Assembly: GCA_021292105.1 (NCBI GenBank)
Contig: CM037869.1
Coordinates: forward strand, 10,498,471-10,562,470
Length of the DNA stretch: 64,000 bases
Origin: Anadara kagoshimensis
Lineage: Eukaryota; Mollusca; Bivalvia; Arcoida; Arcidae
Direction: 5' to 3'
Shown here: positions 13,171-46,440 of the stretch, piece by piece
Layout of the letters: each line of letters begins with the position of its first letter
Position numbering within the stretch: the first letter of the stretch is position 1
Made by a program: the position numbers and the translations under genes
Notes under the pieces: model-generated
What the model was told of the DNA's origin: nothing
What the model saw: the letters and a program-made list of their open reading frames with translations, nothing else
The model's database searches: none

Positions 13171-13200
13171 GATTTGGTCTGCCGAAAGACTGGAAAAACA

Positions 13201-16573: not shown

Positions 16574-16774
16574 AGTATTGACTCCTTTTCGTTAGCTCAG
16601 TGTTAAACTTTCGAATCTGGTTTTATTTTGTTTTTTTTTTAATTATTCTGTTCTGAATTGTATAACATAAATTTAAACCGTTTATGTCACTCAAATGAAA
16701 ATATTGAGTAACATGTTCATTAGTAGAAATTTTTATATATATATCTTATACTATTTATAAATATGTCCATTTTT
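16574..16774 (+). repeat. Orphan promoter copy 1, distal part
   Basis: Nearly identical to 22648-22848. It starts AGTATTGACTCCTTTTCG, passes through GTTAGCTCAGTGTTAAACTT (an end of the MITE family seen at 55062) and finishes CCATTTTT at the insertion point of the Helentron-like element. The copy resumes at 19659. Confidence 0.85.
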
Positions 16775-19658: not shown

Positions 19659-20005
19659 TTATGTAGACAAACAACAATGACTTGTCCGTTTGACCTTTTA
19701 TAAGGAATATTCATACAGGATATTAGGATCCACCCAATATATAGGCGATGTTAAGATTCGCAGTTAATACAATACAGGTGTATAGTTTTTACCTGTACTT
19801 GTGTTCACTATACAAAAATGTACTAGTGCATAGTAAATATTTAATTAAAGGTCAAATGAACAGGTCAATGTTGTTTTCCTATACATCATAACGTAGAACA
19901 CTGTTTATATTGTATGCCAAATGATTTTTGTATGTATTTGTAGTTTGTATTCATTCATTATTTATTTCCTCTATAAAAGAGATATTACATTATAACATAT
20001 GTGTT
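19659..20005 (+). repeat. Orphan promoter copy 1, proximal part with TATA box
   Basis: Continues the block broken at 16774. 19659-19950 is nearly identical to 22850-23139 and more distantly matches the receptor promoter 12815-13140. The similarity seems to run through TATAAAA (19972-19978), aligned with the receptor TATA box (CTCTATAAAAGAGA versus GCTATATAAGAGA). Instead of receptor coding sequence it runs into the 3' end of the minus-strand LINE. Confidence 0.7.
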
Positions 20006-22647: not shown

Positions 22648-23139
22648 AGTATTGACTCCTTTTCGTTAGCTCAGTGTTAAACTTTCGAATCTGGTTTTAT
22701 TTTGTTTTTTTTAATTATTCTGTTCTGAATTGTATAACATAAATTTAAACCGTTTATGTCACTCAAATGAAAATATTGAGTAACATGTTCATTAGTAGAA
22801 ATTTTTATATATATATATCTTATACTATTTATAAATATGTCCATTTTTTATGTAGGCAAACAACAATGACTTGTCCGTTTGACCTTTTATAAGGAATATT
22901 CATACAGGATATTAGGATCCACCCAATATATAGGCGATGTTAAGATTCGCAGTTAATACAATACAGGTGTATAGTTTTTACCTGTACTTGTGTTCACTAT
23001 ACAAAAATGTACTAGTGCATAGTAAATATTTAATTAAAGGTCAAATAAACAGGTCAATGTTGTTTTCCTATACATCATAACGTAGAACACTGTTTATATT
23101 GTATGCCAAATGATTTTTGTATGTATTTGTAGTTTGTAT
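22648..23139 (+). repeat. Orphan promoter copy 2
   Basis: A 492-bp block nearly identical to 16574-16774 joined to 19659-19950. It lacks the Helentron-like insertion, so it shows the pre-insertion state. Its proximal half is homologous to the receptor promoter, but it stops before the TATA box and runs into a tandem repeat. No receptor coding sequence follows. Confidence 0.85.
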
Positions 23140-23754: not shown

Positions 23755-24042
23755 TATACGTCAGGGTCTGACCCCTTGAAAAAGGTAGTGACTGTTCTTT
23801 CGCCAAGCACTCGACATTTAGAAATGACAGTCACAGGGTCGGTAAAAAGAGATCTTAAAAACCGATGTATCGTGTTACCACAGGCTTGACACGTTAAAAA
23901 ACAGTCCTCCCTGCACCGTTGCTCTGAGCGCAATGTAAAGGTAAAGGTTTCTGCAACTTACCTATAGCTGGTGACGCCTCGATATAGCTGAAATATTTTC
24001 GGCTGATTTGTAAAACCCCATTCATTCAATCAATCAATCTTT
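23755..24042 (+). mobile_element. SINE, head missing
   Basis: Body and tail match the SINE at 11140-11403: CTTGAAAAAGGTAGTG, AAAAACCGATGTATCGTG, TAGCTGGTGACGCCTCGATA and TAAAACCCCATTCATTCAAT. The tRNA head is absent. Its 3' half is included in the large segmental duplication and recurs at 36106-36235. Confidence 0.75.
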
Positions 24043-24899
24043 ATCATGTTACTTACTTTATTTATATTTTTCATTGTTTGTAACTAAAAACACAAACAAC
24101 TAGAGGACGAAATAAAATAAAGGAATTCATAAGATACACTTTAATTGAGATCCTATATAATATATTTACTAAGATAAAAGTTAACCAATGGCGAGGGGGT
24201 ATGTATTAATAAGGCAACAAGCACATTCAACCAATACCAAAAACACCTATGTCGTACACTCCAGATTTTCATTTACTTTCCGCATTTATTGTTCCATATT
24301 TTAAAAAAAGACACTCATAAAACCAAGGTTAAACCGCTTTGCTTTCCAAAATTTACCGTTTATATTTTAGAATTCATTTTTATTTATTCACAGTTTCTCA
24401 AAGTTCCTCTTCTGACTAAGTATCTATCTATTCCCTATTGTCAGCTCAAAGCAATCGGAATCTAAATTTTGGCCGGGTGGATATGAATCTTCATATGATG
24501 GTTGGTTTTTCCAGTATCTATCTAATCTCGACTCATAACTTGTGATTTCATTTGCTGCAGTATTAATTCTAATTAAAAAGCCATGGAGCCATTGATTCTG
24601 ATTTTGTCCAATGGTCCTACTGTTAAGACCATAGCGAGCCACATTAACATTGCATGAATGCAAAAATGCATTTTAGAGGACAGATTTTGAAAACGTACCC
24701 TCTGAAAAATCATAGAATGAACATTTGCTGTAACTACTAATGTTGGTATGCTGTTTCATGCGCCAAATATACGATGTATAAAGGAATAGTTCCTTATGTT
24801 GAATCTTACTCATTCAAACTTTAACAATTTAAATTAAGGAACCAATATGTTTCTATAGACAGTCGTCTGTTGTCGGTTTCAAATTAGGAATTCACCATT

Positions 24900-25400
24900 C
24901 GATGGTCGGAAGTCATATGTTCCACATTTTGAGATTTCCTATTCATATTTGAAATTCATTCATGAAAACATAAAATCCACGCATCTCAAGATGTTTATTT
25001 GGAATTTATATGCTCCATATTTGGAAATCCTTATTCCGATTTGGAATTCATTCGCGGAAATCATGAAATCCACACGTACAGAAGTTGTACATTTAGAATT
25101 AATTAATCAACATATTAACATTTTCCACATATGGAAATCCTTATTCACTTCAAAATACATTCGCAGAAATCATGAAATCCATGCATCCATCATTCTGATA
25201 TTCATGTAGAATGAATATTTTCCACATTTTACGATTCCTTATTTACATTTGGAATTTATTCGTGCATAACATTATACCACGCATTCAGAATTCAGAAGTA
25301 TTCGTTCTACATTTGGAATCCTTATTCACATTTCGGAATCAATGTCTTAAAATCAAGATTTCACCCGTTCCTTATTTGAGTGTACTATATCTAAGACATT
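24900..25400. repeat. Degenerate tandem repeat of about 110-120 bp
   Basis: Repeating motifs CCACATTTTGAGATTTCCTA, TTGGAATTCATTCGTG and AATCATGAAATCCA recur four or five times with heavy divergence. The block is also present in copy B (37130-37600), so it predates the segmental duplication. ORFs here (24949-25426) follow the repeat and are not genes. Confidence 0.65.
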
Positions 25401-25789
25401 TTAACCGCGGTAGCACTTCTAAATAGTTACCATTCAAATCGTATATAGGCAGTGCAGTTCAACAAATGGCTCGCATCATATGTAGGTATTACTGCTATTT
25501 GTCATATTCTACTTTTTAATGCATTATTGAATGTAGATGAAGTTTAACAATTTGAACATGTCGTATATGACAGTGTAGTTCAACCAATGGGCAGTGCTGA
25601 TGATCAGTTAAATCAACTTTTTGTACACTGATGTCTGCAATTCAAAATTAAAGTAGTTCCATGTACCAACCGATTTTCTTTAAACTTTCTGCAATCACTT
25701 GAAATTAAACAATATATGCATGCGTATGCCATCCAGTTTGTTTGCAGGATTTAGTTCACTGACATTGCAGACTTGAATTTTTAGCTGTT

Positions 25790-28700
25790 CTAGCGTTTTG
25801 TTGTTTCTCCCTCGTCTTTAACAGAACTATGTGAAAACTCCTCCTTAACAGACGACACTGACGTAGAAACGGTAGGTGGGCGTGGCTGGTATTTTTGCTC
25901 CGGAATTGCTGAAAAATACAAATACATTACTATTGAAAATTGTTACTTTAATTAAAATTAAGAAGAATTTAAAGTTAACATTTTTTTCAAATTTAAGCGA
26001 CTATTTCTCTCTCTAGTTATCAAAAACGATCTTCTGCAGCAGTGTAGACATTCCAAACCAATGTTTTAGGTACAAAATTTGCGTTACGTAGGACGCTTAT
26101 TTATAGTATACGATAGACCTCTTACATGGTTGATGTCCATGCATTGTAGCAACTGCTAGTGAAGTCCAACGCCTAATGAATTCAAAAAATTAGGGCTCTT
26201 GATATTACAAGTTCTCGAAATTATACGACTGTATTTTATATCAAACGGCGATAGTGCAAAATGCATTTTTATTTGTCCATGCATTCACTGTTTCTTGTTA
26301 TGCATTTTTGTCATTAAGGTCCGTTTGTGTGCTCTCATATGTATTGTTGTCATAATAATGTTTTGTAACTTCGCATAAACAAATTTGCATTTGATTTTAA
26401 CGGGAACAGCTCAACATATGGACGCATTTTATTGTTTTGCACGGCAATTTGAAAACAAAATGCCACCAATTGATGGACATAAGGTAAAAACCTCATCCCT
26501 AGGATGTTTACATTCAGTTTATTTGAAAGACTTTTGTTCCATTCACAAAATATACCTGGGAAATTATGTGATATTGTGTCTGTAACAGCTGAAAAATCAA
26601 AGCCTTTATCAAATACTAGCGTTGGACATCGTGATTTTTAGCATGCGCTATTAAAATCCAAAGTAAATTTCAGTTTGCATTTTTTAAAAACAAGTGCTGT
26701 CTTTTGCAATAAGTCCATATATTGACCAAATATTTATTTCGTAGAGTGTATTTAAAAATCTTTAACTGCCAACGACACGATTTGTCTTCAAATGTACACG
26801 TTAAGCTAGAATGACTGATGGGATTTTGATGAGGTATTGTAATACACTTCACAGTCACAGTTAACTAACACGAAGAAAATCTGTTAAACCAACGACTTTC
26901 TGAATCACGTGTTACTTACCGCCAATGTTCGGCATCAAAGCCCGTTAAATGTCACAGAAGGGTGTCTTTGGTGTGATTTATGTTTATGATCTATTAGTTT
27001 CTGGCTGTCACTAAGTACATTTGATTCTTCTAAACCCAGCTGTTGTCATCCATTTAGCTATTATGTATGTAATATAAATTAACTCCTTAAGCCTCAAGGT
27101 TTTGAGAAATTGTAGGAATTTCCAAAGCTATTGGTCGGCCTGGTGTAATGGCATAAAGAGTTTCGCACTTTCAGTATTCATGGAATTTTTATAATGGTTG
27201 ATGACGCCCCCGGTATTTCCTCTTTATAACTCTGATAAAACTTTACCTGTTCATTGTTGCATTGAATATGTGCTAATTAGCACACATACGAAGTATCACA
27301 AAACATCAGAACACCAGTTCATATGTTACATTACCTGGTTATTGTTCAAGCATTCCTCCACGCAAGATATATAAGGTTTAAGTCATTCTTGAACGATCTT
27401 GAGAAATATATATATCTTATTAAATATGGATAAAAAGGTTCATCTCTTATTAAAAAAAATACAAATGTCATTTTATGTCGCCATTTTGACTTCAAATACG
27501 ATACAGATTAAATATTAAGATTTTTTTAAAAGACGTAACAGATAATTTCATAATTATGCGTGGTTGGAGGGTGATACAGATTATTAGTTCCAAGCGGTTT
27601 TTTGTTTAGGGGGTGGGGCTTCCATGATACCTTACCATACCTACTACTGATAAGTTAGTATTGAGGAATTTAACATCCAGAAAGTGCGCAATGGGATGTC
27701 CCAAAATCATTTGGCGTATCTGCCATATAGAAAACACATGATGTATTTTTCCTTTATTTCTGATGTCTAAAAGACAGTCTCTCGTGTTAAGATGGCAATG
27801 CAGCCACTATACGTCTAAATCATTACTGAGGTTATAACTTAATAAAGCGTCTTAGTGACTCTTAGTCTACGAAATCACTGTTGCTAATTTCCGTGTTTTC
27901 CAAGAAATCCTCCGTTATTTAAATAACTGAATAACTAGATTTATTGGTCGTTAAATGACTCGATTGAAGCAATAGCAATCCGCATCATTCTATCTTCAGG
28001 GCTGAAACCATTTACAGCTAACTCTAACTGCAATGCCTCTTTTATAGTAAGCTGTCTCGTAATGTCAATTCATGTCTAAGTAGCACTCTTAAGTGAATCT
28101 GAAGTATGAACAAGAATTGCAATAAAGCTGTGACAAAGTTGTTAAATCTGTTAAATCAGACGCTTCTACAACACGTACATGTAGTACAGACTCTTGTTTC
28201 ACAATCATTCCCTAACAAAGAAAATCTGACAAAAATGAAATCTTAATAATTTTGTTATTTTGTAAGATATTCAGGAATTTAAGGTGTCATTCAAAGACAA
28301 TACCAGTTTATAACATGTGTATTTAAATTCGCAATAAATTTGTATTTATAGTTTCTAAAAAGATTACCAGAATTTGCATAATTTCAGTTAAGGAATGATT
28401 GTGAAATTGGAACCTAGTACTTCTAAATTATTACTACCGAGAACATCTACAGATGTATTTTGCAAAATAAAAATATTCTGGTTTGATATTAAAATTTGAT
28501 ATTATTGATATCATTTACCGGCTTCATGTTTTTACTTATAAAGCAATTGTAGTAAATTATTGTTCGTGTTTTCTTATATTGCTTCGTTAGTTACAAACTT
28601 CTTTTGGATTGTTAGTTTACGAAATGAGTGCATTTTAGGTGTTGGTCTATTGGTTCCCTATTTAAGCCTTAATCCGCTACCAAAACACATTTATCCCAAA

Positions 28701-31034
28701 TGTTATACTAGTAACATTCTGTAAACGTATTTATTTTAGCGGTGTACTAATTTTCGCATATTTCGCGGTCGTTTGTTGTGCGTGAAAATTAATACAGAGC
28801 GAAAATTATATTATGCCTATTGTGTTTTAGTGCATATTTAAAAGATGCAAACATTTAATTACACGGATCTGCCTTAATTGCCTATATCGCGAAAATAAGT
28901 ACACGCGAAATCAAATACGTTTACAGCAATCAATAAATATTCATCATTGACTATTACTTTTTATATCATTTCTGTTATTGTTCATGTGTATACATTGATT
29001 CTGTATCATGATGAAAAAGTCAAACATAAAGAAATTAGAATGATCAACCTTTAATGACAACTAACATTTTTTTGATTAAAATAAATTTCAGTTTTCAAGG
29101 CAACACGAGATAACTTTATCACAATTTAACGCATACGGATTTCTTTTTATCAACATTACTGTAAGCTAATAAATGGTTAGAGTGCTCATCAAAAGCATAT
29201 TTTTTTTCAGCACTTATTATTTAGCTATATCTCTCGTTAGACTTTCAGTTACTAGCTATGTATATTTCATCCATTCGACAGCCATGTTGGTTCTGTATTA
29301 AGCTTCCTACAGGTCTACTGTACGCTGTTCATTTTGCGTCCTTGTGTTAATTTCGCTGTTAGCCTTTCAGCCACCAGCTATCCATTTTCCATAGCATTCG
29401 GCATCCGAGCTACGACTCATTTTGTTGGTTCTGTATTAAGCTTCCTACAGGTCTACTGTACGCTGTTCATTTGGCGTCCTCGTGGTGCTGTGTAAGCAAT
29501 CCCTGACTAACACATCATACAAGATTTATGCTTGTTATAACGACTACAAGCTGCTGCTGAAACCAGATACTCATCATTACAGTTATACTATATCATATCA
29601 TACAAGTGATTTCTTATCCTGAACCTGAAGGAGTGGCTCTGTTTTATCTGCATTTATCAAGATATCTTTAATCGCCCACGATACTAATGAGCCTACAATA
29701 CTAGGGGCGTCTATCAAGTAGGGCAAACTAGGACTACTGAGGGTTGTAAATAACCACGTTCTGTCTTTTCCATACTTTCTATGCCAAACAGCGCTTTTAA
29801 TAAATTCTCCACATTTATAGTTACAACTTTCTTTTTATCCATTAATACGACGTTTAAGAAGAAAATCACAGTACGATTTTGGTAACGAGATTCCCTGTTC
29901 CATTTAGTGTTGAAACGAGATAGCAACAAAAAAAACCGTTTATACTTATATATCCATAAAAAACAAATGAGTTTTAATTTGTAGTGACACATTTATATTC
30001 TCTGTTTGAAGAAAGCTTACATATTGTTTGCCTGTAAGTATAGTATTATTCTCTGACAGAGTTTTTGATGAATACCTCTCAAAATCTCAAAAATGCATAT
30101 GCAATTGGTTACTTACAGATCATATTAGTCAATTTGAAAGTCATACAAATTTGTCTATGAGCATCAGAAAGATAAATAAAACCCTTCTATTAATTTTGTT
30201 AAGCAGGGTGACGTTTTATTACGCCAAGACATTATACCGATACCACCAGTAGCTTTCAAAACTAAACCATCTAGAAAATTCTATTGTCACATTCATGGGC
30301 GAGAACGCATTTGGTAAGAAAAACTGAGTTAGCAACACACATTTTAATTTTAAAGAAGACTTTCGTATTCGTCAGACATCAATTGTATGTAAATCTATAA
30401 ATATTTGTGTTAACTTGATAAACATGATAAAGGACTCCTTCTCTATATGCTATTTGTTTGATTATATATTTGGTGTATTTATCAATGAACTTTATGCATG
30501 CTGACGATTCTTTCTATTGGAGATGTTGTTTTTTGTCCTTAACGAATTTGACGTCAGTATGAAAAACATCAATTCATTTTATATATCATTTAAAACGGTT
30601 GCTATAGCAACAAAAGAATGAAATAACGATGTTTTTTTTAATTTTCTTGTATACTGTAAAATTCTATGTAACTTAATATATATTTAAAATTATACCACTG
30701 TGTATGCTACTATCCTGATTATTGAATGGAGGTTTTAAAAGCATTTTACATAATTGTTATATTTTTCAACCCCTTAAAAATTTAGGATTCACAATTTTGG
30801 TCCAAGCAATACCGATGAGGAATTGTATTCCGAAACAGCCGTCTAGAGCTGTAAAATTAACACGGGTATAATATGTAATTAGGTACTAAAACAATCAAGA
30901 AAGTTATAAGACTTACAGTATCTTTCCTCTCCGTCAGGTTCACCCCGGGTGTCTGTCATGGTGGTATCCATCTCACTTGGTTCTCTGTAAGACTTCATCT
31001 TAACATGTGTTGTTCTTGAATTCGCACACCCCAT
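25790..31034 (-). CDS. Small predicted N-myristoylated protein, two exons (copy A, intact)
   Basis: Exon 1 is 30917-31034 and exon 2 is 25790-25908 (stop included), with an intron of about 5 kb. The donor reads TACT|GTAAGT and the acceptor TTTTTCAG|CAATTCC. Exon 1 ends in phase 1 and exon 2 is open only in the matching phase; the join gives 78 residues. The protein begins MGCANSRTTH: Gly2, Cys3 and Ser6 fit N-myristoylation plus palmitoylation, predicting a membrane-anchored peripheral protein. The rest is polar and low in order, with REPSEMDTTMTDTR, a Pro-rich YQPRPP and a Ser-rich tail ending KDEGETTKR. In copy B most exon 2 changes are synonymous, arguing for past coding selection. Kozak context is good (A at -3, G at +4). 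I do not recognise the family; vertebrate OCC1 also starts MGC-NS but shows no further similarity. Confidence 0.7.
28719..28926. mobile_element. MITE with about 38-bp inverted ends
   Basis: The ends CTGTAAACGTATTTATTTTA and TCAAATACGTTTACAG pair over about 38 bp with a few mismatches, continuing through GTGTACT and TTTTCGC. It is 208 bp and noncoding. No matching segment was found at the corresponding place in copy B, so it probably inserted after the duplication. Confidence 0.7.
29286..29481. repeat. Partial direct duplication, 138-bp period
   Basis: GTTGGTTCTGTATTAAGCTT and the following CCTACAGGTCTACTGTACGC occur at 29286 and again at 29424, about 57 bp each and nearly identical. Nearby CGTTAG/CTTTCAG motifs suggest decayed MITE sequence. 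Confidence 0.7.
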
Positions 31035-31049
31035 CTTATACCGACTTCA

Positions 31050-31195
31050 GATATACGTTGTGTGACGTTACTCACATCAGAAATATTATAAAGGGTCAAT
31101 TTCATCAGTGGGTTTGCACTGTAAAAAACAAAGGCACTATTGGTGCCATGCGGTCCAGAAACTTTTTTCACGTCCAAACAGTGTGGCTAAAATAT
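31050..31195. repeat. Single copy of the 135-bp unit that is triplicated in copy B
   Basis: Contains CTCACATCAGAAAT, GGCACTATTGGTGCCATG and CTTTTTTCACGTCCAAA directly upstream of the small gene's ATG. The same block occurs three times at 44105-44490. Both ORFs across it are spurious. Confidence 0.75.
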
Positions 31196-31779
31196 CCATC
31201 ATATGTAGTTTAAAGTTAAAAGATAAAAGTGTTACTTTAAAATTAATATATCAATTTCTATCCACTATAATAAATATATATTGACTACGCAATCTGTCAG
31301 ATTGATATTTGACAACTTTGTTCTAAATAATGGTAGTTCTTGCAATTTCCACAGTAAGCCTTAGGTTGAAATTTAAAAAAAACCACTTTACAAACCACTT
31401 CCATTATTATATTATTTTTGTACATATCCAATATTCAGTCTGTAGAATCCAATCACTGACAGACAGTTCTGCTATGTTTTATTCTGCTCATGAAGTGTTT
31501 ACATTTTGTGTGTTTGTCCCAGAAAAAACAACATGTATTTATGTGACAGTTGTATCAATGTTCTCTTCTATAAGTCTGCTGCACGGATGTTGTATTAACC
31601 CGGTATACAGACTGTGTAGTGTTCTTTCTATGTAATGGTGTATATTCTACATTATAACTGTCTCCTCATTGATTTTATGAACACATACCAAATCGGTTGT
31701 AATTTATCGTTTATTAACGACTTCTATATGTACATGTATTACTTTGTGAAATAATCATCTTCAAACATACGACGGATGA

Positions 31780-34700
31780 CTATTATTTGTCAATACATGT
31801 ATGTCCTACATGACGGAGGACGAGTAATTGTCAATACATGTATGTCCTACACGACAGAGAACGAGTAATTGTCAATACATGTATGTCCTACATGACGGAG
31901 GACGAGTAATTGTCAATACATGTATGTCCTACACGACAGAGAACGAGTAATTGTCAATACATGTATGTCCTACATGACGGAGGACGAGTGATTGTCAATA
32001 CATGTATGTCCTACGAGTAATTGTCAATACATGTATGTCCTACATGACGGAGGACGAGTAATTGTCAATACATGTATGTGCTACATGACGGAGGACGAGT
32101 AATTGTCAATACATGTATGTCCTACACGACGGAGAACGAGTAATTGTCAATACATGTATGTCCTACATGACGGAGGACGAGTAATTGTCAATACATGTAT
32201 GTCCTACATGACGGAGGACGAGTAATTGTCAATACATGTATGCCCTACATGACGGAGGACGAGTAATTGTCAATACATGTATGTCCTACACGACAGAGAA
32301 CGAGTAATTGTCAATACATGTATGTCCTACATGACGGAGGACGAGTGATTGTCAATACATGTATGTCCTACATGGCGGAGGACGAGTAATTGTCAATACA
32401 TGTATGCCCTACATGACGGAGGACGAGTAATTGTCAATACATGTATGCCCTACATGACGGAGGACGAGTAATTGTCAATACATGTATGTCCTACATGACG
32501 GAGGACGAGTAATAGTCAATACATGTATGTCCTACATGACGGAGGACATGTAATTGTCAATACATGTATGTCCTACATAACGGAGGACGAGTAATTGTCA
32601 ACACATGTATGTCCTACACGACGGATGACGAGTAATTGTCAATACATGTATGTCCTACATAACGGAGGACGAGTAATTGTCAACACATGTATGTCCTACA
32701 CGACGGGGGACGAGTAATTGTCAATACATGTATGTCCTACATGAAGGAGAACGAGTAATTGTCAATACATGTATGTCCTACATAACGGAGGACGAGTAAT
32801 TGTCAATACATGTATGTCCTACACGACGGGGGACGAGTAATTGTCAATACATGTATGTCCTACACGACAGAGAACGAGTAATTGCCAATACATGTATGTC
32901 CTAAACGACGGAGGACCAGCAATTGTCAATACATGTATGTCTTACACGACGGGAGACGAGTTATTGTCAATACATATATGTCCTACACGACAGATAACGA
33001 GTAATTGCCAATACATATATATCCTACACGACGGAGGACGAGTAATTGTCAATTCATGTATGTCCTACACTACGGAGGACGAGTAATTGTCAATACATGT
33101 ATGCCCTACATGACGAAGGACGAGTAATTGTCAATACATGTATGTCCTACACGACAAGGGACGAGTAATTGTCAATACATGTATGTCCTACACGACGGAC
33201 GACGAGTAATTGTCAATACATGTATGTCCTACATGACGGAGGACGAGTAATTGTCAATACATGTATGCCCTACATGACGAAGGACGAGTAATTGTCAATA
33301 CATGTATGTCCTACACGACAGAGGACGAGTAATTGTCAATACATGTATGTCCTACACGACAAGGGACGAGTAATTGTCAATACATGTATGTCCTACACGA
33401 CGGACGACGAGTAATTGTCAATACATGTATGTCCTACATGACGGAGGACGAGTAATTTTCAATACATGTATGCCCTACATGACGAAGGAAGAGTAATTGT
33501 CAATACATGTATGTCCTACACGACGGAGGACGAGTAATTGCCAATACATGTATGTCCTACATGACGGGGAAGAGTAATTGTCAATACATGTATGTCCTAC
33601 ATGACAGAGGACGAGTAATTGTCAATACATGTATGTCCTACATGACGGAGAACGAGTAATTGTCAATACATGTATGTCCTACATAACGGAGGACGAGTAA
33701 TTGTCAATACATGTATGTCCTACATAACGGAGGACGAGTAATTGTCAATACATGTATGTCCTACACGACGGGGGACGAGTAATTGTCAATACATGTATGT
33801 CCTACATGACAGAAAACGAGTAATTGCCAATACATGTATGTCCTACACGACGGAGGACCAGCAATTGTCAATACATGTATGTCCTACACGACGGGGGACG
33901 AGTAATTGTCAATACATGTATGTCCTACACGACAGATAACGAGTAATTGCCAATACATGTATGTCCTACACGACGGAGTACGAGTAATTGTCAATACATG
34001 TATGTACTACATGACGGGGTTGAGTAATTGTCAATACTTGTATGTCCTACATGACGGAGGACGAGTAATTGTCAATACATGTATGTCCTACACGACGGAG
34101 GACGAGTAATTGTCAATACATGTATGCCCTACATGACGGAGGACGAGTAATTGTCAATACATGTATGTCCTACACGACAGAGAACGAGTAATTGTCAATA
34201 CATGTATGTCCTACACGACGGAGGACGAGTAATTGTCAATACATGTATGTCCTGTATGACGGAGGACGAGTAATTGTCAATACATGTATGTCCTACATGA
34301 CGGAGGACGAGTAATTGTCAATACATGTATGTCCTACATGACGGAGGACGAGTAATAGTCAATACATGTATGTCCTACATGACGGAGGACATGTAATTGT
34401 CAATACATGTATGTCCTACACGACAGATAACGAGTAATTGCCAATACGTGTATGTCCTACACGACGGAGTACGAGTAATTGTCAATACATGTATGTACTA
34501 TATGACGGGGTTGAGTAATTGTCAATACATGTATGTCCTACATGACGGAGGACGAGTAATTGTCAATACATGTATGCCCTACATGACGGAGGATGAGTAA
34601 TTGTCAATACATGTATGTCCTACATGACGGATGACGAGTAATTGTCAATACATGTATGTCCTACACGACGGAGGACGAGTAATTGTCAATACATGTATGT

Positions 34701-34820
34701 CCTGTATGACGGAGGACGAGTAATTGTCAATACATGTATGTCCTACATGACGGAGGACGAGTAATTGTCAATACATGCATGTCATACATGACGGAGGACG
34801 AGTAATTGTTATCAATGTAT
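31780..34820. repeat. 41-bp minisatellite, about 74 units
   Basis: The unit is about GTAATTGTCAATACATGTAT followed by GTCCTACATGACGGAGGACGA. Common variants are ACATGA/ACACGA, CGGAGG/CAGAGA and GTCC/GCCC. The period is exactly 41 bp, with one shortened unit near 32010. Since 41 is not a multiple of 3, each frame repeats every 123 bp, producing fake ORFs such as MSIHVCPTR. The array starts about 750 bp upstream of the small gene's ATG. Copy B has only one to two units (45045-45120), so the expansion or loss followed the duplication. Confidence 0.97.
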
Positions 34821-36016
34821 GTCCTACTGCTTGGTTAGTGGAAATTATTCTCAATCATAATTTGGGATATTAAGCAGTTAATCTCATTTATTTTCGATTT
34901 ATCTACAATTTAGTTTTCTCAAAATCGACGTATTTTATCACAAGCCTGATTTAATTTACATGTGATTTATCCCAACAAAACATATACACACAGCTGTTAA
35001 ACCAACTCGGAACACTGCATACACACTATTGCTTTGAATGTTTAATTTCAATATCATTCATTGCTTTGCGTTTTAATTTTCTGCATGTTTACAAATTCAG
35101 TATCGCTATCACAAGTCAATACTACAATTTCTGTCAATTTACAATAGCATGTTGTATCATACACGCTATTGCATTGGACTTTTGCGTTTCTAATTTCTGC
35201 ATATAAACGAATTAAATATCAATATTACTATTACAAATTAATTTTGTTATTTAATTTCCCCTAATCTGAAGTAAATTTTGCGATGCGATTGTCACATGCA
35301 AATGTAACATGTTCTCCTTCTAGTAAAAGGATGTTTGTCTAAAGTCTGCAATTTTTGACGGTTCAAGCACTCGGCGTTTTAGATTTAGCAGGCTTATATA
35401 TGATATAAATCAGGAAGTATAACTTGTTTAAGTTTGGATTAATCAATGTCTAGTTAAACCGTTAAAAATCGATAAGAGATGACAAATCAAATTTTGAGTC
35501 ATATAAATGAATACAAGAGACATTTGTAGGTGCTATGTTGATTATTCTGATCTATACACGCTGTATAACGCCATTATTGACAGCAATAATCTATCACTAA
35601 AATAAAACCAGTGTGCAGGAAATGTTATATTTATCTTAAGACGATGCTGTATTAGCGCTAACTGTTCTATTGACTACTTGTTGCATTAATGGTTAAAGCA
35701 AACCATTTAATTTTACTAATATCATACTTGTCAAATTCAATTAAAATAAAGACATACCTCATGTTATGTCAATACTGTAAACGCGGTCACGTGTCTATTT
35801 AATACGGATATCCAGGCGTCAAGTCCGTACTCTATTCAGGCGGTTTTTAATTTGTTATTGTATTATTATATTACATAGCTTCTGATTTTTTTTATGAAAA
35901 CATTGAATAAACGTTTCAATTGTTTCTGAAACTACGTATTTGAATTCGATGGTTTGCCAATTCGCAAATAAACGCAAAATATATGTCTCGACAATTAGTT
36001 ACGAAACCGATAATAC

Positions 36017-36103: not shown

Positions 36104-39100
36104 GAACTCGATGCACATTGCCCTGGGAGGACTGAATGTAAAAATTTCTGCAACTTCACCTATGGGTGGTGACGCATCGATATAAGTTTAATATTTTTGA
36201 CTGAGTTGTAAAACCCCATTCATTCAGTCTACAATCTTTTTCACGCTACGTACTTTATATTGTTCACTGTTTGTAACTAATAACACAACAACTACAGGAC
36301 AACATAAAAAACGAACTCACAAAACCCACTTTAATTGAGATGCTTTATATACATGTATACTAATCAAGATAAAAGTTATTTAAAGGCGATGGATTATGTA
36401 TTAATAAGGCAACAAGCACATTCAACCAAAACCAGAGAAAAAGGTTTGTAGTACACACCTTATTCTCATTTACTTTTCGCATTTATTGTTGCATATTTTG
36501 AAACAAACTCGACGCAACCTTCTCGTCACTAACCAGTGTTAAACCGCTTTACTTTACGAAATATTCCGTTTATATTTTTGAATTCATTTCTTATTTATTC
36601 AGTTTGTCAGAGTTGCTCTTCTGCCTTTAAGATTCTCTCGTATTCCTTACTGTCGGATCATATCAATCAGAATATAAACTTAATGTGTGGTCATGTCCAG
36701 GTTGGTGAAACTGAACAAATCTCCTGATAATCATGATACAATGGTTGTTTTTTCCAGTATCTATCTAATCTCGTCTCGAAAGCTCTGATTGTATTTGATG
36801 CAGTGTTACTTCTAGAAGGAAGCCATGGGACCATTGATTAATATCCCCCCATTGACCCTATTGTTGAGGCTTTAGTGGGCCACATTAAACATTGCATGAA
36901 TGCAATAATGCATTTTAGAGAAAAGCTTTTGAAAATTGTCCCTCTAAAAAATCCTAGAATGAACACGGTTCTGTAACTAGAGATGTTGTTAAACTGTTCC
37001 ATATTCCAACTGAACGATGTCTAAAGGAATGGTTCTTTATGTTGGGTCTTATTTATTGAAACTTTAATCATTTAAATTAAGAAACTAATATGTTCCCTAT
37101 TAGACATTCGTCTGTTGTCGGTTTCAAATTAGGAATTCATCATTCGATGGTTGGAAGTTATATGTTCCACATTTTAAGATTTCCTATTCACATTTGGATT
37201 TCATTCGTGGAAAACATAAATTCCACGCAGGAATTTATATGCTCCATATTCGGAAATGATTCAAATCCTTATTCAGATTTGGAATTCCTTTGTGGAAATC
37301 ATCAAATCCACACGTTCATCATTCAAACGTTGTAATTTAGAATCAATTAACTAAAATATTAATATTTTCCACATTTGGAAATCCTTATTCACATCAAAAG
37401 TCATTCGTGGAATCCATGCATTCATGATTCAGATATTCTTTTAAAATTAATTTGTTCCACATTTTGCGAATTTGGAATTCATTCGTGCAAATCATGAAAT
37501 CCAGGCATTCAGAAAATGTCAATTTAGAATTTATACATTCCACATTTGGAATCCTTATTTATATTCGGAATTCAAACGCTTTTCTACATCAGACGTATTT
37601 TAACCGCGACAGCAGTATAAAGCTTTTATACACTTCTAAATACAATACAGATTGTACTGGAACTTAAAACATTGCTATGACGTCATGCTTTGTCTTTGTA
37701 TGTGTATTAACTAGCCTAATCGCCAGTTATTACCTGTGAGTGTCCAATAAGTTGATACAACATTAACTAATCGAATGGACAGTTAGAATACACAGCTAGA
37801 TTAACTTTTTGGACAGTTACAGGTGAACTGATTATTCATCCGAAACAGCTTAAGAGTCCAAATAGCACAGAAAAATAGAACAAAAACTAAAATGGAAAAG
37901 TTGTGATTTTTTTTACATTTCTAGCTCATTGCACTGTTTTCACATCATACTGAATAGTATTATTTAATTCCAGAAGAATTACACTATCTTCATAGATAAC
38001 GCTAACGCTAACCCGCCTCTATTAATTCTTTCTCTCACAGAATGAACAGCTTTCGGCTTCTCTCTATAACAGATTACAAATTGCTTTGAACTTACTGCAA
38101 AAATTCACACCAATCAAGTAGTATGTGAGCAGTGCAGTTTAACAAAAGGCTCACATTGCATATAGGCACTGCTGCCATTTGCCATGTGCTACTTTTGAAT
38201 GTATTATTGAATGTAGATGTATTTCAACAAATTGAACACGTCGTATACGACAGTGTAGTTTAACCAATGATCAGTGTGGATGATCAGAAAATCAATTGTT
38301 TGTACTAAAAGTAGTTCCATGAACCAAGCGATTTTCTTCGAAACTTCTACAATCACTTAAAATTAAACAATTTATGCATGCGTACGCTATCCCGATTGTT
38401 TGCAGGATTTGGTTCACCGACATTGTAGATTTTTGGCTGTTCTAGCGTTTTGTTGTTACTCCCTCGTCCTTTACGGAACTATGTGAAAACTCCTCCTTAA
38501 CAGACGACACTGACGTGGAAACGGTAGGTGGGCGTGGCTGATATTTCTGCTCCGGAATTACTGAAAATACAAATCCATTACTATTAATAATTGTTATTGT
38601 AAATTTGTAGAATTTAAAATAAACCTTTATTTTCAATTTTTGAGCCAATGTTTCTCTCTCTAGTCACCAATAACGATCTTATGTAGCTGTAGCAGTATCA
38701 AACTTTCCAAACCAATGTTTTAGGTACAAAATCCGCGTTACGTGGGACACTTATTCAAAGTACAAGTTAGACCTCTTACATGATTGAGGTCCATGCATTG
38801 TAACAACTGCTTGTGAAGTCCAACACCTAATAAAGTAAAAAGATTGAGGCTTCAGACGAGAAGTCTTTTTGATATTACATCATGAATTTATTCTAGAAAC
38901 TGTACGACTGTTAAAACGGCGATAGTGCAACACGCTTTTAGCCACACACACATCATACTTTTTATTTGTCCATGCGTGCAAGCTGTTATTTTTAGCATTT
39001 CTTGTCATTTTAAATTGTTCGTGTTGTTGTCCTTATAATGTTGTGTTTAGTGGCACCAACAAATATGCATTTGATTTAAACGGTAACAAAGTATGAATGC

Positions 39101-40129
39101 ATTTTATTGTTAACCAATTGTCACACCAATTTGAATAACGAATTGGCATCATTTATTTCAACATAAGGAACAATCATCGTCGCTGGGCAACGAAAATGTT
39201 TACATTCAGTTAATTTGAAAAAAAATTTGGTCAATTAACAAAATATACCCGGAAAGTATGTGAAATTGTGTCTGTAACAGCTGAAAAATCAAAGCATTTT
39301 TATCAAAATACTAGCGTTTGACATTGTGATAGTAACATGTACTATAAAATCTAAAGTAAATTTCAGTTTGCATTTGTGAAAAACAAGTTCTGTCTTTTGC
39401 AATTGACCAAATATTTATTCAGGAGAGTTGATTCATAAGCCTTTAACTGCCAAAGACACGATTCACGTTAAGCTAGCTATAGAATGACTGATGGGATTTT
39501 GATGAGATATTGTGGTAGATGGATTTAAAAAGATTTCCCAGTCACAGTAAACCAACTCGAAGAAAATTCGTTAAATCAAAGACATTCTGAACAATGTGTT
39601 ATTTACCGCCAATATTCGGCATCAAACACGTTAAATGCCACAGAAGGGTTTCTTGATTTTAATATGTTTATGCTGGTTCTGGCTGTCACTAAGTACATTT
39701 GATTCTTCTAAACCCAGCTGTTGTCATCATCCATTTAGCTACAAAGCACGTTATAAAAATAACTCCCTCAGGATTTTGCGTTGAAATTACTATTTTTCGG
39801 CCTGTTGTAATACATAATGCCATCAAGAGTTTTCAGTATTCATGGACTTTTGATAACGGTTGATGACGCTCCCGGGTTTGCCTATAACTATAATAGTATT
39901 TTACCTGTTTATTGTTGCATTGAGTATGTGCTAATTAGCTAAGTATATCACAAATTCCGTCTACTTGAACAATCAAAACACTTGTTCATATGAACTTTAC
40001 CTGGTTATTGTTCAAGCATTACTCTACGCTTGCAAGATATATAAGGTTTAAGTCCTTCTTGAACGATATTGAGAAACATATGTTGCTCTATGTTTAAAAT
40101 TATTGAAATATATGAATATAAAAGTTCCA

Positions 40130-40131
<2 letters not shown>

Positions 40132-40188
<57 letters not shown>

Positions 40189-40210
40189 ATGTGTGTGTGT
40201 GTGTGTGTGA
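40132..40210. repeat. (CT)n followed by (GT)n microsatellite
   Basis: CT repeats from about 40132 to 40188, with small interruptions, run directly into GT repeats to 40209. Confidence 0.95.
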
Positions 40211-41309
40211 TCAGCTTCTTCTTTAAAACAACTTGACGGATTTTAATAATACTTGGTCAGAAGTAGAATGTATAGATTTGTGAAATTCAAATCCGTTCAC
40301 AACACCAAAGAAGTTCACTGGTAATTGCGTTACCATATAGACAACTTTAATTTCAGTTTGTATTGTTTATTGCTGTTTGAAGATAAAAACAACATTTTTA
40401 TATTCTTTTGTAAATCTTATTCCTAAGATAACTAATTTGATCTGCCGATATTAACTGCATCAAAGTAGATTTTAAAATAATTTAAAAATTATGACGCCTT
40501 TAAAATATAAAGATAAATAATAACTTCACACACTAGGATTGGATACAAATACGTACATCAAAAAGTGTACAATGGGCTGTCCAAAATCATAAGGGGTTTG
40601 GCGTGTCTGCCATATGAAAACACGTGATGCGTTTTTTCCTAGATTCCTGATGTCAAAATGACACAGTAGACTGTTGTGTTAAGACGTAGACAACAATGTA
40701 ACAATCATACGTCTAAATCATTATTGAGGTTATAACTGAATAAATCGAGTTAGTGACTCGTCTATGAAATCACTGTTGCCAATTTCCGTGTTTTCCAAGA
40801 AATCTTCCGTTATTTAAATATCTGAATAACTAGATTTAAACTACATTAAAATGACTTGATTGAAGCAATAGAAGTCTGCATCATTTTATCTTCAGGGATA
40901 AAACCATTTATGGCCGACTATAACTAGAATGCCTCTTTTATAGTAAGTTGTCTCGTAATGTCAATTCATGTCTAAGTAGCACTCTTAAGTGAATCTGAAA
41001 TATGATTAAGAACTGCAATAAAGATGTGTGACAAAGTTGTTAGATCTGTAAAACCATACGTTTCTACAACACGTAGTACTACATTTCAAGCTGTATGACA
41101 AACGTAAAAACTTCAATTTTTCTTTCTTTTCTATAAAGTAATATATCTTCTTTTCCTGCTAATTGCGTATTTGTTTCACAATTAATACGTTATGGTAGGA
41201 CTTGTGCTTACTATAAGAACTTTATACACGATGCAAGCTGCTTAAAAAAAAATTTAAGCCAGAATATTGCAGGCCTAGGGATTTCAAGGTTTATGACCTT
41301 CAAAATCGT

Positions 41310-41590
41310 TTATTAGTATAATTTCTTGCACCCATGATAGAAAAATCCATAGAAAGAGATGCAAGATATCTCCATCTTATACCCACTGTGCAAGATAACC
41401 TACACGCTGATTTTCCTGCAAAATTTGATAACAAAATCAGAGGTTTATCGATAAGTTGAAATCGATTTAAACTGAAAATCTGTAATTTCTGGTGCAAGAA
41501 ATAGAATAATCACTACTTGTTCTCGTTCTGAACTAAATATATTATAACTCGGGTTGAGATTTCCCTATCTTGCTTCACAAGTTGTAATAG
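41310..41590 (+). mobile_element. Dispersed element with TTCTTGCACC ends
   Basis: TTCTTGCACC near 41322 and GGTGCAAGAA near 41491 form short inverted ends. The whole segment, including CGGGTTGAGATTTCCCTATC and CACAAGTTG beyond them, recurs in the opposite orientation at 62480-62735. The copy-A counterpart lacks it, so it inserted after the duplication. The minus-strand ORF at 41300-41497 belongs to the repeat. Confidence 0.6.
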
Positions 41591-41689
41591 ATTCTATTAG
41601 TCTGTATATTTGACGTCTCATAGTTCCATCTTCATATCGTTCTCAATTTGATTATACACGTGTAGGTTGTGACTTGCTTAACAGGACGT

Positions 41690-41810
41690 TTTCACCTTCC
41701 GAAGAACTCGTACTCACTTTCCTGGTAGAAGTTCACGTGTTTGACTTTATCTGATGTTTTCAGAGTTTTTACTTTGCTTTGAAATTTCGATTTGGACTAA
41801 GATTGGTATG
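41690..41810 (+). mobile_element. Retroelement 3'-end fragment
   Basis: TTCACGTGTTTGACTTTATC, CAGAGTTTTTACTTTGCTTT and GATTTGGACTAAGATTGGTA match the 3' ends at 57290-57360 and 58170-58230. Confidence 0.5.
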
Positions 41811-42044
41811 TTGTTTTTGATTTTATACTTTTTAATGGTTTTGATAAATTCTCTACAGGAATCGTCACAACCTTCTTTTTATCCATTATTACGATGTTTG
41901 AGAATAAGATCTCAATAAGATTTTGGATACGAGATTCCCTGTGTGATTTAGTGTTGAAACGAGATAGCAACAAACCCGTTCATACCTATCCATCAATAAA
42001 AACAAATGAGTTTTAATTTGTCTGTTCTCTCTGTGTGTATATAT

Positions 42045-43004
42045 AAAGTCCATTTAATAATTATTGAAATGGGGAAAATAAAAATTGAACTGAGCGAGAA
42101 AAACACTTTATTAATAATTTAATGAAATATTTCCAAAAGTGGGAACAACACGTTACTATGTTTTCAGTAATTAATAAATGCATACATACCGGTTGGCATT
42201 TTTTGTTTGTAATTTCATGTGCCTTACTTTTGTATTCAGTAAGTAATGCACAAATTTGCTGGACATCTTTATATTTCTATAACTTTTTATGAATATATAT
42301 ATTTACGCAATTCCTGGCTTCTTCATTTAACGTTTTAAGTTTGTCAAGTTTAAGTATGTTCGTTATGCTAAATCATTCTTAAATGAATTTCAGTAAGACG
42401 TATGGTAAACAGAGAGAGAGAGAGAGAGAGAGAGCGTTGTCTCAAATAATGATTTGCACGCGTATTGTGGCAAAAATGCTATTTCGTACAAAAATGTGGT
42501 GACGTAAAAAAACCAAAGTTTTAGTACATGACATACTCGTACATGCAGCATTATATAAGTAACACCGCTTTTTTGAATGTACATGTATTTTATGATTAAA
42601 TCAAAAAAGTGGTATATGACAAAATAATAACTATTAATAAATTTAGGTAAATCAATAATTTAAACAATTTTGAGTAATTTTTAGAACCAAAATTATGAAA
42701 AAATATTCGTCCTTGTCAATCATATGTAGTGTTGCGTATCAACATTTTCGATAAGTATGTCTTATGCAAATTAGCTCAGTATTTACCTTTCCAAAATGGT
42801 TTAGACAAAATAGCCGTTGATAAAAAATGACCAAAATTTACGGAGTATGGGGCAAAACTGAGAAAAGTTTCAGAACAGAAATATTAAAAGTTAATTACGG
42901 CATGAATTGTATAATAAATTTACGATTTTACTTTTATAATAAAAGGTTTCGTTTTAGAGAACTTAACGAAAAACCTAGAGACTAAAGGATCGTAAATGGA
43001 CTTT
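42045..43004. mobile_element. 960-bp insertion with AAAGTCCATTTA inverted ends
   Basis: AAAGTCCATTTA at 42045 and TAAATGGACTTT ending at 43004 bound a segment absent from the same place in copy A (about 29990-30010), so the sister copy serves as the empty site. Inside are an (AG)n tract (42411-42434) and a hairpin around CCGCTTTTTTGA / TCAAAAAAGTGG (42566-42612), which is also seen near 56040-56115. No protein. Confidence 0.6.
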
Positions 43005-44104
43005 TTTAGAAGGCACCTTATATATTGTTTATCTGTACAGTATAGTATTATACTCTGACAGAGCTTTTGATGAATACCTCTCAAATTCTCAAAATTTGAA
43101 ATGCAATTTGTTACTTACAGATCGGCTTAGTAAATTTAAAAGTCGGACAAAAATGTCAATATGCATCAGAAAAATAAATAAAACCTTCTATTAATTTTGT
43201 TAAGGAGGGTGCCGTTTTATTACGCCAAGACATTATACCAATACCACCAGTAGGTTTTAAAACTAAACCATCTAGAAAACTCTATTGTCACATTCATGGG
43301 CGAGTATACCTATGTTACAACGCATTTTGTAACAAATACGAGCTAGCAACACACGTCCCTGTCACATTTTATTTTCGAAAGACTTTCGTACTCGTCAGAC
43401 ATCAATTTTAACCTGCAATGTATCTAAATATATAAATATTTGTGTGAGGAAGGACTCCTTCTCTGTATGCATTTTGTTCGATTAAATATTTGGTGTATTC
43501 ATCAATGAGACTTTTTTATGTTGATGGTTCTTTCTGTTTGAGATGAGTGTTTATGTCCTTAACACCTTTTACGTCAGTATAAAAAACATCAAATCATTTT
43601 ATATTTTATATTTTATATATCAAAACGGTTTCTATAGCAACAAGAGAATTTCCAAAATTGAATAAAATAATGATTTTTTTTAGTTTTCTTGTATACTTTT
43701 AAAATTCTGTGTAACTTAATATTATAACCGTTTCAGATCGGTTATTGTATTCTATTTAAAACTATACCCTGTGTATGTTACTATCCTGATTATTGAATGG
43801 AGATTCTAAAAACTTGTAAAAAACATTTTAAATAATTGATATTTTTTTCAACTGGTACTAATTCATTAGTTAGATGTTAAACTTTCGACAAGCCTCTACT
43901 GTACTCATAACAATAAGGACAGTATAAATCTCTGTATATAGACTTACAGTATCTTTCCTCTCCGTCCGGTTCCCCCGGGTGTCTGTCATGGTGGTATCCA
44001 TCTCACTTGGTTCTCTGTAAGATTTCATCTTAACATGTGTTGTTCTTGAAGACGTACATCCCATCTTATACTGACTTTAGATATACCCTTATGTAGTAAC
44101 ACAC

Positions 44105-44490
44105 GGTGTATAAAGTAACACACGTTAGAAATGGTCTAAAGGGCCAATTGGCTCTGTATACGAGAAAGGCACTATTGGTGTCATTTGATCCAAAAACTTT
44201 TTTCATATGTCGTAATACACTATGTATGAAGTAACTCACATCAGAAATGGTCTAAATGGTCGATTGGCTCTGTATGTGAGAGCACTGTTGGTGCCATGTG
44301 ATCCAAACACTTTTGCACGTCCAAAAAAGTGTGTCCAATATCCACCATCATACACAGTGTATGAAGTAACTCACATCAGAAATGGTCTAAATGGTCGATT
44401 GGTTCTGTATGTGAGAGCACTGTTTGTGCCATGCGATCCAAAAACTTTTTCACGTCCAAAAAAGTGTGTCCAATAGCCACGGTATGTATT
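44105..44490. repeat. Three tandem units of about 119-135 bp upstream of copy-B exon 1
   Basis: Units start near 44105, 44224 and 44359. Each has GTATGAAGTAACTCACATCA, GGTCTAAATGGTCGATTGG and CACGTCCAAAAAAGTGTGTC. The last two units are nearly identical. Copy A has one unit. The block sits 40-430 bp upstream of the ATG on the minus strand, in the promoter position. The ORF through it is an artefact. Confidence 0.9.
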
Positions 44491-46440
44491 TTTAACTTAA
44501 TAGATTAAAGATTCTAAATTGAATATATCCATTTCTATCCACTATAATTGAATATATATCGAATAAAGCAATCTGTCAAATTGATGTTGGACAACTTTGT
44601 ACGTGTTTTAAATAATGGTAGTTCTTGCAATTTCCACAGTATGTCGTAGGTTGAAATTTAAAAAGCACTTGTGATGAAACACATCCATTATTATATTATT
44701 TTTGTACATATCCAATATTCAGTCTGTAGAATCCAATCGCTGACAGACAGTTCTGTTAATGTTTAATTCTGCTCACGAAGTGTTTACATTTTGTGTGTTT
44801 GTCCCAAAAAAATCAAAATGTATTTACGCGACAGTTGTGTAAATGTTCTCATCTATAAGACTGCTGCACGGATGTTGTATTAACCCAATATACGGACTGT
44901 GTAGTTTTCTGCCTATGTAATGGTGTATATTCTACATTATAACTGTCTCCTCATTGATTTTATAAACACATAACAAATCGGTTGTAATTTATCGTTTATT
45001 AACGAATGTAATTACTTTGTGAAATAATCATCTTCAAACACACGACGGATGACGAGTAATTGTCAATAAATGTATGTCCTACATGACGGAGTAGAATACT
45101 AGTAACTTGTTATCAATGTATGTCCTAGAACTGATTGGTGAGTGGAAATTATTCTCAATCATAATTTGGGATATTAAGCAGTTAATCTCCTTTATTTCGA
45201 TTTATCTTCAATTCAGTTTACTCAAAATTGATGTATTTTTATCACAAACCTGTTTCAATTTACATGTGCATATTTATCCCAACAAAAGATATACATACAG
45301 CTGTTAATCCAACTCGGAAACTGTGCTATCATACACACAATTGCTTTCTTAATTTCAATACCATTCATTGCTTTGCGTTTTATTTTTCTGCATATTTACA
45401 AACTTCATATCACCATTACAGAATGCTACAATTTCTGTCAATGTACAAAGACATGCTGTATCATGTAACACGGTTTTGCTTTGAACTTTTAAATTTTCAT
45501 ATCATTTATTGTTTTGCGTTTCAAATTTCTGAAATTTATTAATTAAATCTCAATATTCCTATCACAAATAAATTCTCTAGTTTAGTTTCCGCTATTCTGA
45601 AGTAGTTTTAATGATATGCCTGCCACATGCAACTTTAAAATGTTCTCCGTCTAGTAAAAGAATGTTTAAAGTCTGCAATTTTGACGGTTCCACATACTAA
45701 CCGTTTTAGATTAAGCAGTTCCGTGTATTATATACACTCTTTAAGTTTGGATTAATCAGTGTCTAGTAAGAGACCGTTAAAGAATCGATAAAAGTTGACA
45801 AATCAAATCTGGAGCCATATAAGTGATTACTAGAGTCGTTTGTAGGTCGTAGATTAAAGATGCTATGTTGATTATTCTGATCTATACAAGCTGTATAACG
45901 TCAATATTGATAGCAATAATGTATCACTAAAATAAAATCAGTGTGCAGGAAATGTTATATTTATCTTAAGAGGACGGTGTATTAGCGTTAACTGTCATAT
46001 TGACTACTTGTTGCAAAAGTGTTTTGAAGCGAATCAATGAAGTCCCCATTTAATTTTACTAATATCATACTTGTCAAATTCAATTAAAATAAAGACATAC
46101 ACCATGTTGTGCCAATACTGTAAATCTATTCAATACGGATATCCAGGTGTCAAATCTGTACTCTATTCGACTGATTTCGTATTAACCCATTTTAAATGTA
46201 TACTTGGTTATTCCAGCGTAGTATTATATAGCTGCTAATATTGTCGTATATTAAGACATTGAATTTACGTTTCCGTTGTTTCTGGACTGGACTTACATGT
46301 TCTCTTTCGCAGAATTGAATGCGGGAGTTTGCCAGTTCGCGAATAAACGCGATCTCGGCAATTAGTAATGAAACCGGTAATACACGGGCGCAACCGGTAA
46401 TACTAGAGTAAAATCGGAAACACGCGAGCAATACAGAAGT

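Follow-up and report, generated by a model that had tools for sequence, protein, structure and literature searches.

Organization of the locus

The 64,000-nucleotide stretch of DNA analyzed here (the window) carries a tandem duplication of 8-9 kb, and within it, on the minus strand, lies a two-exon gene that is very probably protein-coding (Table 1). In copy A, the exons contribute 118 and 119 nt to a coding length of 237 nt ending in TAG, the phase matches across the intron, and the frame is open throughout, giving a predicted product of 78 aa with the N-terminus MGCxxSR. The start codon has A at −3 and G at +4, and the donor GTAAGTCT and the acceptor TTTTCAG are common to both copies. A sequence-only reading of this DNA had proposed the two exons, the GT/AG pair, the matching phase, the start context and the residues Gly2, Cys3 and Ser6, each of which was found where it had been placed; it had also held the exons to be too short for ORF calling, and neither appears in the program-made ORF list, whose lower limit is 100 aa.

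Both exons occur again in copy B. The same reading had noted this duplicate but had missed that it is frameshifted: an open frame with start and stop across a canonical GT-AG intron was found in copy A and not in copy B as assembled. The disruption, a single-nucleotide deletion, adjoins a GGGG run. Copy B in its assembled form is either a pseudogene or a truncated version of the gene, unless the deletion is an assembly error. That it is functional too, because the frameshift arose during assembly or base calling at the G run, because it encodes a truncated lipidated peptide of 39 aa, or because alternative splicing rejoins the frame, is possible, at odds that we place well below even: the lone indel beside GGGG, the otherwise restrained amino-acid change and the intact splice sites favor it, while the window's three long ORFs, of 841, 836 and 437 aa, are all uninterrupted, so that indel errors seem infrequent in the assembly, a weak argument against. 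No third copy of the gene beyond chance was found in the window by blastn, or by tblastn among the first 30 matches listed.

Table 1. Coordinates of the gene, its duplicate and the conserved segments around it (positions in the window)
Feature	Position	Strand	Description
Copy A of tandem segmental duplication	23938..31849	.	Chained blastn segments, ~75-83% identity; alignment
Copy A exon 2	25790..25908	-	Encodes SIPEQKYQPRPPTVSTSVSSVKEEFSHSSVKDEGETTKR; first Ser codon split by intron; stop TAG
Copy A intron	25909..30916	-	5,008 bp; donor GTAAGT at 30916-30911, acceptor TTTTTCAG ending at 25909
Conserved intronic island	27820..28170	.	No coding pattern stood out in general scan
Conserved intronic island	30172..30300	.	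Best open 90-bp window, 2 changes per 4 substitutions
Copy A exon 1	30917..31034	-	Start codon to phase-1 donor; encodes MGCANSRTTHVKMKSYREPSEMDTTMTDTRGEPDGEERY + 1 nt
5' leader adjoining start codon	31035..31094	-	In-frame stop 5 codons upstream of ATG; also in copy B
Conserved upstream island	31310..31790	.	Best 119-bp windows 90-96% identity over all columns
Copy B of tandem segmental duplication	36135..45127	.	Chained blastn segments; alignment
Copy B exon 2	38442..38560	-	First codon reads as stop in shifted frame
Copy B exon 1	43948..44064	-	117 nt; 1-nt deletion in codon 31

Coding-type constraint between the copies

The duplication supplies an internal comparison that shows selection on the frame without an outside genome. 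Between copies A and B the exons differ by 14 substitutions, nine of which are synonymous, and all nine fall at codon position 3 (binomial P 0.017 for the position-3 bias of the substitutions). The dN/dS ratio between the copies, a check that had been proposed beforehand, was 0.14 (dN 0.028, dS 0.200; simulated P 0.0003), in a comparison of just two sequences, one of which (copy B) is frameshifted as assembled. Exon 2 shows eight substitutions, six of them synonymous, with two residues changed (P 0.006 for this exon alone), and exon 1 shows six, three of them synonymous, with two residues changed and one indel (P 0.03). Taken alone, the three of six in exon 1 are weak evidence for coding. The earlier description of the differences as mostly synonymous holds for the substitutions together and leaves out the frameshift deletion in copy B exon 1.

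The alignable non-coding sequence of the duplication differs between the copies at 16.6% of sites, a divergence from which 39 exon substitutions would be expected against the 14 observed (binomial P 7e-7, which presumes even rates along DNA whose rates are visibly uneven). Identity by itself is no proof of coding: of 5,051 overlapping windows in non-coding sequence, 43 reach 94% identity or more between the copies. Open, gap-free 90-bp windows were compared for the ratio of amino-acid changes to substitutions. The lowest ratio among exon windows, 0 changes per 6 substitutions, came only from windows within or near exon 2; among 66 windows outside the exons the lowest was 2 per 6, and no scanned non-exon window equalled the best synonymous bias of the exons. 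With windows of 60 and 75 bp, one place outside the exons (~24950-24870) reached 1 change per 5 substitutions. Because the exon substitutions are predominantly synonymous, the surrounding non-coding DNA has diverged to this extent and the bias of the exons is unmatched in the scanned windows, the way in which the copies differ strongly backs a two-exon gene that is very probably coding.

Were the exons instead conserved non-coding DNA, such as regulatory elements or an RNA, the open frame would be fortuitous. Such a reading could draw on the three islands of Table 1, which are about as conserved as the exons and have no clear coding pattern, on codon usage, which is indecisive (log-odds of 0.12 for the gene frame, a value within the highest 4.4% for intron windows, vs 0.09 and 0.25 for the other two forward frames), and on conservation between the copies that weakens but does not end at the stop codon. 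We regard it as very improbable in view of the synonymous excess, which has the same direction in both exons, the exon windows being the most coding-like among those scanned, the end of high identity at exon 1 within ~10 bp past the donor, and the single exon indel where 5.0 were expected (P 0.04). A dying gene, with function being lost in both copies and copy A only the less damaged, would account for the frameshift in copy B; it is scarcely probable, as copy A is fully open and dS is seven times dN.

N-terminus and character of the predicted protein

Gly2, Cys3, Ser6 and Arg7 are the same in both copies while residues 4 and 5 vary, and three of the five non-synonymous substitutions affect codons 4 and 5, where MGCxxSR leaves the residue free. 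Retention of these four residues around a variable pair is the pattern that N-myristoylation together with palmitoylation would require. In both copies, the context of Gly2 is of the NMT type (PS00008-like by the PROSITE pattern, with Ser6 and without Pro7), and Cys3, the only cysteine of the 78-aa protein, follows it. A PS00008-like N-terminus is begun by six of the 3,087 ATGs in the window; ATG-Gly-Cys starts also number six, and of these only the starts of copies A and B combine Ser at position 6 with 20 codons free of stops.

By charge and hydropathy the protein plots with disordered chains (mean H 0.348 vs a boundary of 0.422). AlphaFold gave pLDDT values of 71 and 76 for single 39-aa pieces modeled without an alignment, by which disorder is neither shown nor excluded. 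The acidic, Ser/Thr-rich tail contains two YxxP motifs (Y16 and Y39) and several CK2-type sites. Motifs of the YxxP, VKxE and CK2 kinds are short and common. Where the sequence-only reading spoke of a small, probably dual-lipidated, disordered protein, the coding gene is borne out by the copy comparison, and sequence composition points to an N-terminus suited to double acylation on an otherwise disordered chain.

Searches for relatives

At E values up to 10, no Pfam family was matched by the full 78-aa protein, by either copy-A exon or by copy-B exon 2. A match of Shugoshin_C to codons 1-30 of copy B (12.9 bits vs a cut-off of 23.3, E 0.099) was taken as chance, as were the four distinct sequences returned by a PDB search (best E 0.41). 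Pattern searches gave six matches in viral contigs and 58 in prokaryotic genome contigs, with none confirmed in either, collections whose content has no bearing on lineage restriction. The strings 'MGCANS' and 'MGCTSSR' were not found in the papers whose text was searched, and nothing relevant on small lipidated proteins of molluscs or on smORFs was apparent from titles and the opening lines of abstracts.

Comparison with known acylated families

An MGC start is found in several acylated proteins. BAALC (brain and acute leukemia, cytoplasmic) is disordered and begins in this way; smAKAP (small membrane AKAP, C2orf88) is a small peptide adaptor with an MGCxxS start; and the SH4-type N-termini of Src-family kinases and G-alpha i/o combine MGC with Ser6 and nearby basic residues. 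The predicted product shares these SH4-type features but, at 78 aa, is unlike the kinases and G-alpha i/o in having no kinase, GTPase or other Pfam domain. It resembles BAALC in its MGC start, its predicted disorder and an RE......T.TD stretch after the anchor that aligns with the human sequence; it differs in length (the longest human isoform has 180 aa), and past residues 1-7 the similarity is not above that of shuffled sequences. Small size and the MGCxxS start are shared with smAKAP, whereas the PKA-binding amphipathic helix of that protein is not indicated. A PKA-anchoring helix in the tail was dropped as a candidate, the maximum hydrophobic moment of the 78 aa not exceeding that of shuffles (P 0.97, an indirect test).

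Another possibility is that the gene belongs, as a diverged invertebrate representative, to one of the small acylated families already described, with BAALC and smAKAP the foremost candidates; comparison with human sequences gave z 3.7 and a shuffle P of 0.004 for BAALC, P 0.048 for OCC1 and P 0.064 for smAKAP. We consider membership improbable: the BAALC signal is gone once residues 1-7 are removed (P 0.22, again with the human sequence), convergence being expected to give that motif, and neither the full protein nor either copy-A exon matched the BAALC or smAKAP families, for which Pfam models presumably exist, at E up to 10. One paper states that the BAALC gene is absent from lower organisms such as Caenorhabditis and Drosophila, which counts against BAALC membership, and that in rat BAALC carries myristate on Gly2 and palmitate on Cys3 (PMC7462906). 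In another, smAKAP is described as a membrane-bound, RI-selective AKAP (PMC10881042).

A model for the gene and its product

These observations have led us to favor, with a probability of about 0.75, a model in which copy A is a real coding gene of an invertebrate, probably a bivalve, whose product is an acylated, disordered, membrane docking peptide, the gene having been duplicated and copy B later frameshifted. Transcribed and spliced as predicted, copy A would yield a highly charged, disordered cytosolic protein of 78 aa. Removal of the initiator Met would allow an N-myristoyltransferase to acylate Gly2, a DHHC enzyme would palmitoylate Cys3, and basic residues among R7-R17 may provide extra membrane contact. 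The acidic tail, with its YxxP tyrosines and CK2-type sites, would then be held at the inner face of the membrane, where it could serve as a phosphorylation-regulated docking peptide. After the tandem duplication, selection would have constrained the protein in both copies over much of the elapsed time, with the frameshift in copy B probably acquired later.

A more extended proposal is that the gene represents an undescribed, lineage-restricted family of dual-acylated disordered adaptors of ~80 aa, whose two YxxP tyrosines recruit CRK-type SH2 adaptors to the membrane and in which tandem duplication and loss lead to copy-number variation between individuals; this we regard as rather unlikely. 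If the family is old or widespread, it would add a membrane-tethered adaptor to the inventory of mollusc signalling; if it is young, it would be a clear-cut example of a newly arisen lipidated protein. Two exons of ~40 codons separated by 5 kb are easily missed by gene callers, and a disordered protein this small yields no domain match, so such genes are possibly under-counted in non-model animals. Taken alone, the gene is a modest annotation result.

Conserved islands outside the exons

Certain non-coding islands within the duplication show roughly the degree of conservation seen in the exons, a feature that the sequence-only reading overlooked. The shorter of the two intronic islands is apparently non-coding. 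In the upstream island no coding pattern stood out, the best open 90-bp window having 3 changes per 6 substitutions, and a plus-strand ORF inside it (31330-31635) was not taken as a gene because of a 1-bp indel in copy B. This island is a candidate promoter/enhancer or 5' UTR exon.

Gene structure and the duplicated copy

The minus-strand gene termed copy A is very probably a genuine small gene, easily overlooked, for which the window itself supplies good evidence. Its two exons (118 + 119 nt) join in phase to give 79 codons, stop included, and the 5,008-bp intron begins with GTAAGT and ends with TTTTTCAG, bearing out the splice pair and matching phase claimed in the sequence-only reading; the good start context claimed there is likewise present (A at −3, G at +4). 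In both copies the frame is closed by a stop codon five codons before the ATG, so translation would naturally begin here unless a further, unseen exon is spliced on directly upstream. A codon-usage model built from the Toll-like receptor and BTB-BACK protein ORFs, both in the window, did not single out the frame, which scored 0.12 versus 0.09 and 0.25 for the other two.

Features of the window (positions; strand where assigned)
Feature	Position	Strand	Description
Copy A exon 1	31034-30917	-	118 nt; encodes MGCANSRTTHVKMKSYREPSEMDTTMTDTRGEPDGEERY
Copy A exon 2	25908-25790	-	119 nt; encodes SIPEQKYQPRPPTVSTSVSSVKEEFSHSSVKDEGETTKR
Copy B exon 1	44064-43948	-	duplicate of copy A exon 1
Copy B exon 2	38560-38442	-	duplicate of copy A exon 2
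Conserved island	31310-31790		identity between copies about equal to exons; apparently non-coding
Conserved island	30172-30300		as preceding
Conserved island	27820-28170		as preceding
Toll-like receptor-type ORF	13174-15699		up to 841 aa, uninterrupted; LRRs + TIR domain
Repeat-bearing inserted element	16775-19659		about 15.7 copies of 145-bp tandem repeat
Reverse transcriptase ORF	20128-22638	-	maybe 5'-truncated
BTB-BACK ORF	50522-51835	-	

Copy B, with donor GTAAGTCT and acceptor TTTTCAG, arises from a tandem segmental duplication in which blastn matched 23938-31849 to 36135-45127 as chained segments in the same orientation. Much of the mid-intron (about 29.9-28.2 kb) was unaligned between copies in the global alignment, which also missed a 188-bp local blastn match at 29795-29982. 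Alignable non-coding DNA differs at 866 of 5,211 sites (16.6%, with 111 gap events), a low estimate as the stretches were picked for at least 75% identity; a different column selection gave 503/3,446 (14.6%). We judged this divergence too high for two alleles wrongly placed in tandem, and therefore regard the copies as paralogues.

As assembled, copy B is broken: with a nucleotide missing from codon 31, it reads 31 copy-A-like residues and 8 unrelated ones before exon 2 opens with a stop codon. Since this is the one disabling change and other change is restrained, the frame was probably lost recently, or else the assembly is wrong at this point, next to a run of G. An internal 135-bp tandem duplication in copy B (44215-44480), not seen in copy A, lies shortly before exon 1. 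A large minisatellite (31771-34827; 41-bp unit x 75) adjoins the upstream edge of duplication copy A.

Coding constraint

Between the copies, the 237 exon columns hold 14 substitutions versus 39 expected and 1 indel versus 5.0 expected. Nine of the 14 are synonymous, so that the mostly synonymous difference noted earlier stands, though the 1-nt deletion in copy B had gone unreported. The ratio of dN to dS, proposed as a check in that reading, was 0.14 (Nei-Gojobori; dN 0.028, dS 0.200). When 14 substitutions were placed at random with the flanking transition:transversion counts (250:253), a mean of 10.2 amino-acid changes resulted, and four or fewer occurred with P 0.0003 (0.00035 on repetition); taken singly, exon 1 (6 substitutions, 2 residues changed) gave P 0.03 and exon 2 (8 and 2) P 0.006. 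As dS is at least equal to the flanking divergence, synonymous positions appear to evolve freely and amino-acid-changing ones to be constrained.

A control scan covered both strands of 37 gap-free blocks (3,748 columns), counting 90-bp windows that were open, with at least 4 substitutions and no more than 20% difference. In the exons, the best windows showed 0 amino-acid changes per 6 substitutions, and 2 of the 66 non-exon windows had a ratio of 0.4 or less, the lowest being 0.33. With 60- and 75-bp windows, one non-exon site near 24.9 kb fell to 0.2, the exons to 0. High identity as such is not distinctive of the exons: among 5,051 overlapping non-coding windows, 43 were at least 94% and 103 at least 93% identical. 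Each of the three conserved islands may be a promoter, an enhancer or a 5' UTR exon belonging to the copy A gene.

The predicted protein

Both copies begin MGCxxSR. Positions 4 and 5 account for three of the five replacement substitutions, and Gly2, Cys3 and Ser6, singled out in the sequence-only reading, are kept in both copies, as is Arg7. PS00008-like patterns denote N-myristoylation, and this conservation fits such a modification together with palmitoylation at Cys3, the sole cysteine, both predicted. Residues 2-17 carry a net charge of +4; one third of the 78 residues are charged, 21 are Ser/Thr, and the charge-hydropathy value falls on the disordered side. The membrane-tethered, disordered protein envisaged earlier agrees with the conserved motif and composition, and the predicted lipid tether is likely. 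AlphaFold models of each exon piece by itself, without alignment, had mean pLDDT of 71 and 76 and pTM of 0.14 and 0.17, values that speak neither for nor against disorder. The tail contains two YxxP motifs (Y16, Y39), two V-K-x-E and seven CK2-type sites; copy B has the codons for both YxxP motifs as well, the second past the frameshift. The protein might act as a membrane-tethered docking peptide regulated by phosphorylation, a guess consistent with its composition.

Neither a Pfam family nor a PDB relative was found for the protein, in line with the earlier failure to recognise a family; searches of viral and prokaryotic collections found no relative, and the exon pieces matched no Pfam family, with one sub-threshold match for 30 codons of copy B. 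Alignment against five human small MGC proteins gave shuffle P values of 0.004 (BAALC), 0.048 (OCC1), 0.064 (smAKAP), 0.16 (LAMTOR1) and 0.22 (C1orf21). With residues 1-7 removed, all five gave P 0.13 to 0.99; the likeness is therefore chiefly the common acylation motif. BAALC is still the best functional parallel: one report describes it as disordered by NMR, and the rat protein as acylated at Gly2 and Cys3 (PMC7462906).

Neighbourhood and mobile elements

The window has a G+C content of about 33%, which, like the oyster-type mobile element below, fits a bivalve genome. PDB sequence relatives of the Toll-like receptor-type ORF include Toll-like receptor 3. The repeat-bearing element, with ends AGCTCACCTG... 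and ...GGCCCATGGGCCTCTTGTT, is inserted between two T's, the uninterrupted site lying at about 22648-23139. In build, it resembles the Crassostrea gigas Cg_HINE elements, which are described as Helentron-type, with satellite-like repeats and a TT preference (PMC7492417). Further copies or remnants of its 145-bp array family lie at 1-919 and 8867-9790. The reverse transcriptase ORF sits between direct repeats of about 495 bp (16574-16774 + 19655-19950 versus 22648-23139; 98-99% identical), which could be an unusually long LINE target-site duplication, one copy later struck by the Helentron-like element. A second large minisatellite (58-bp unit x 34) occupies 58420-60397.
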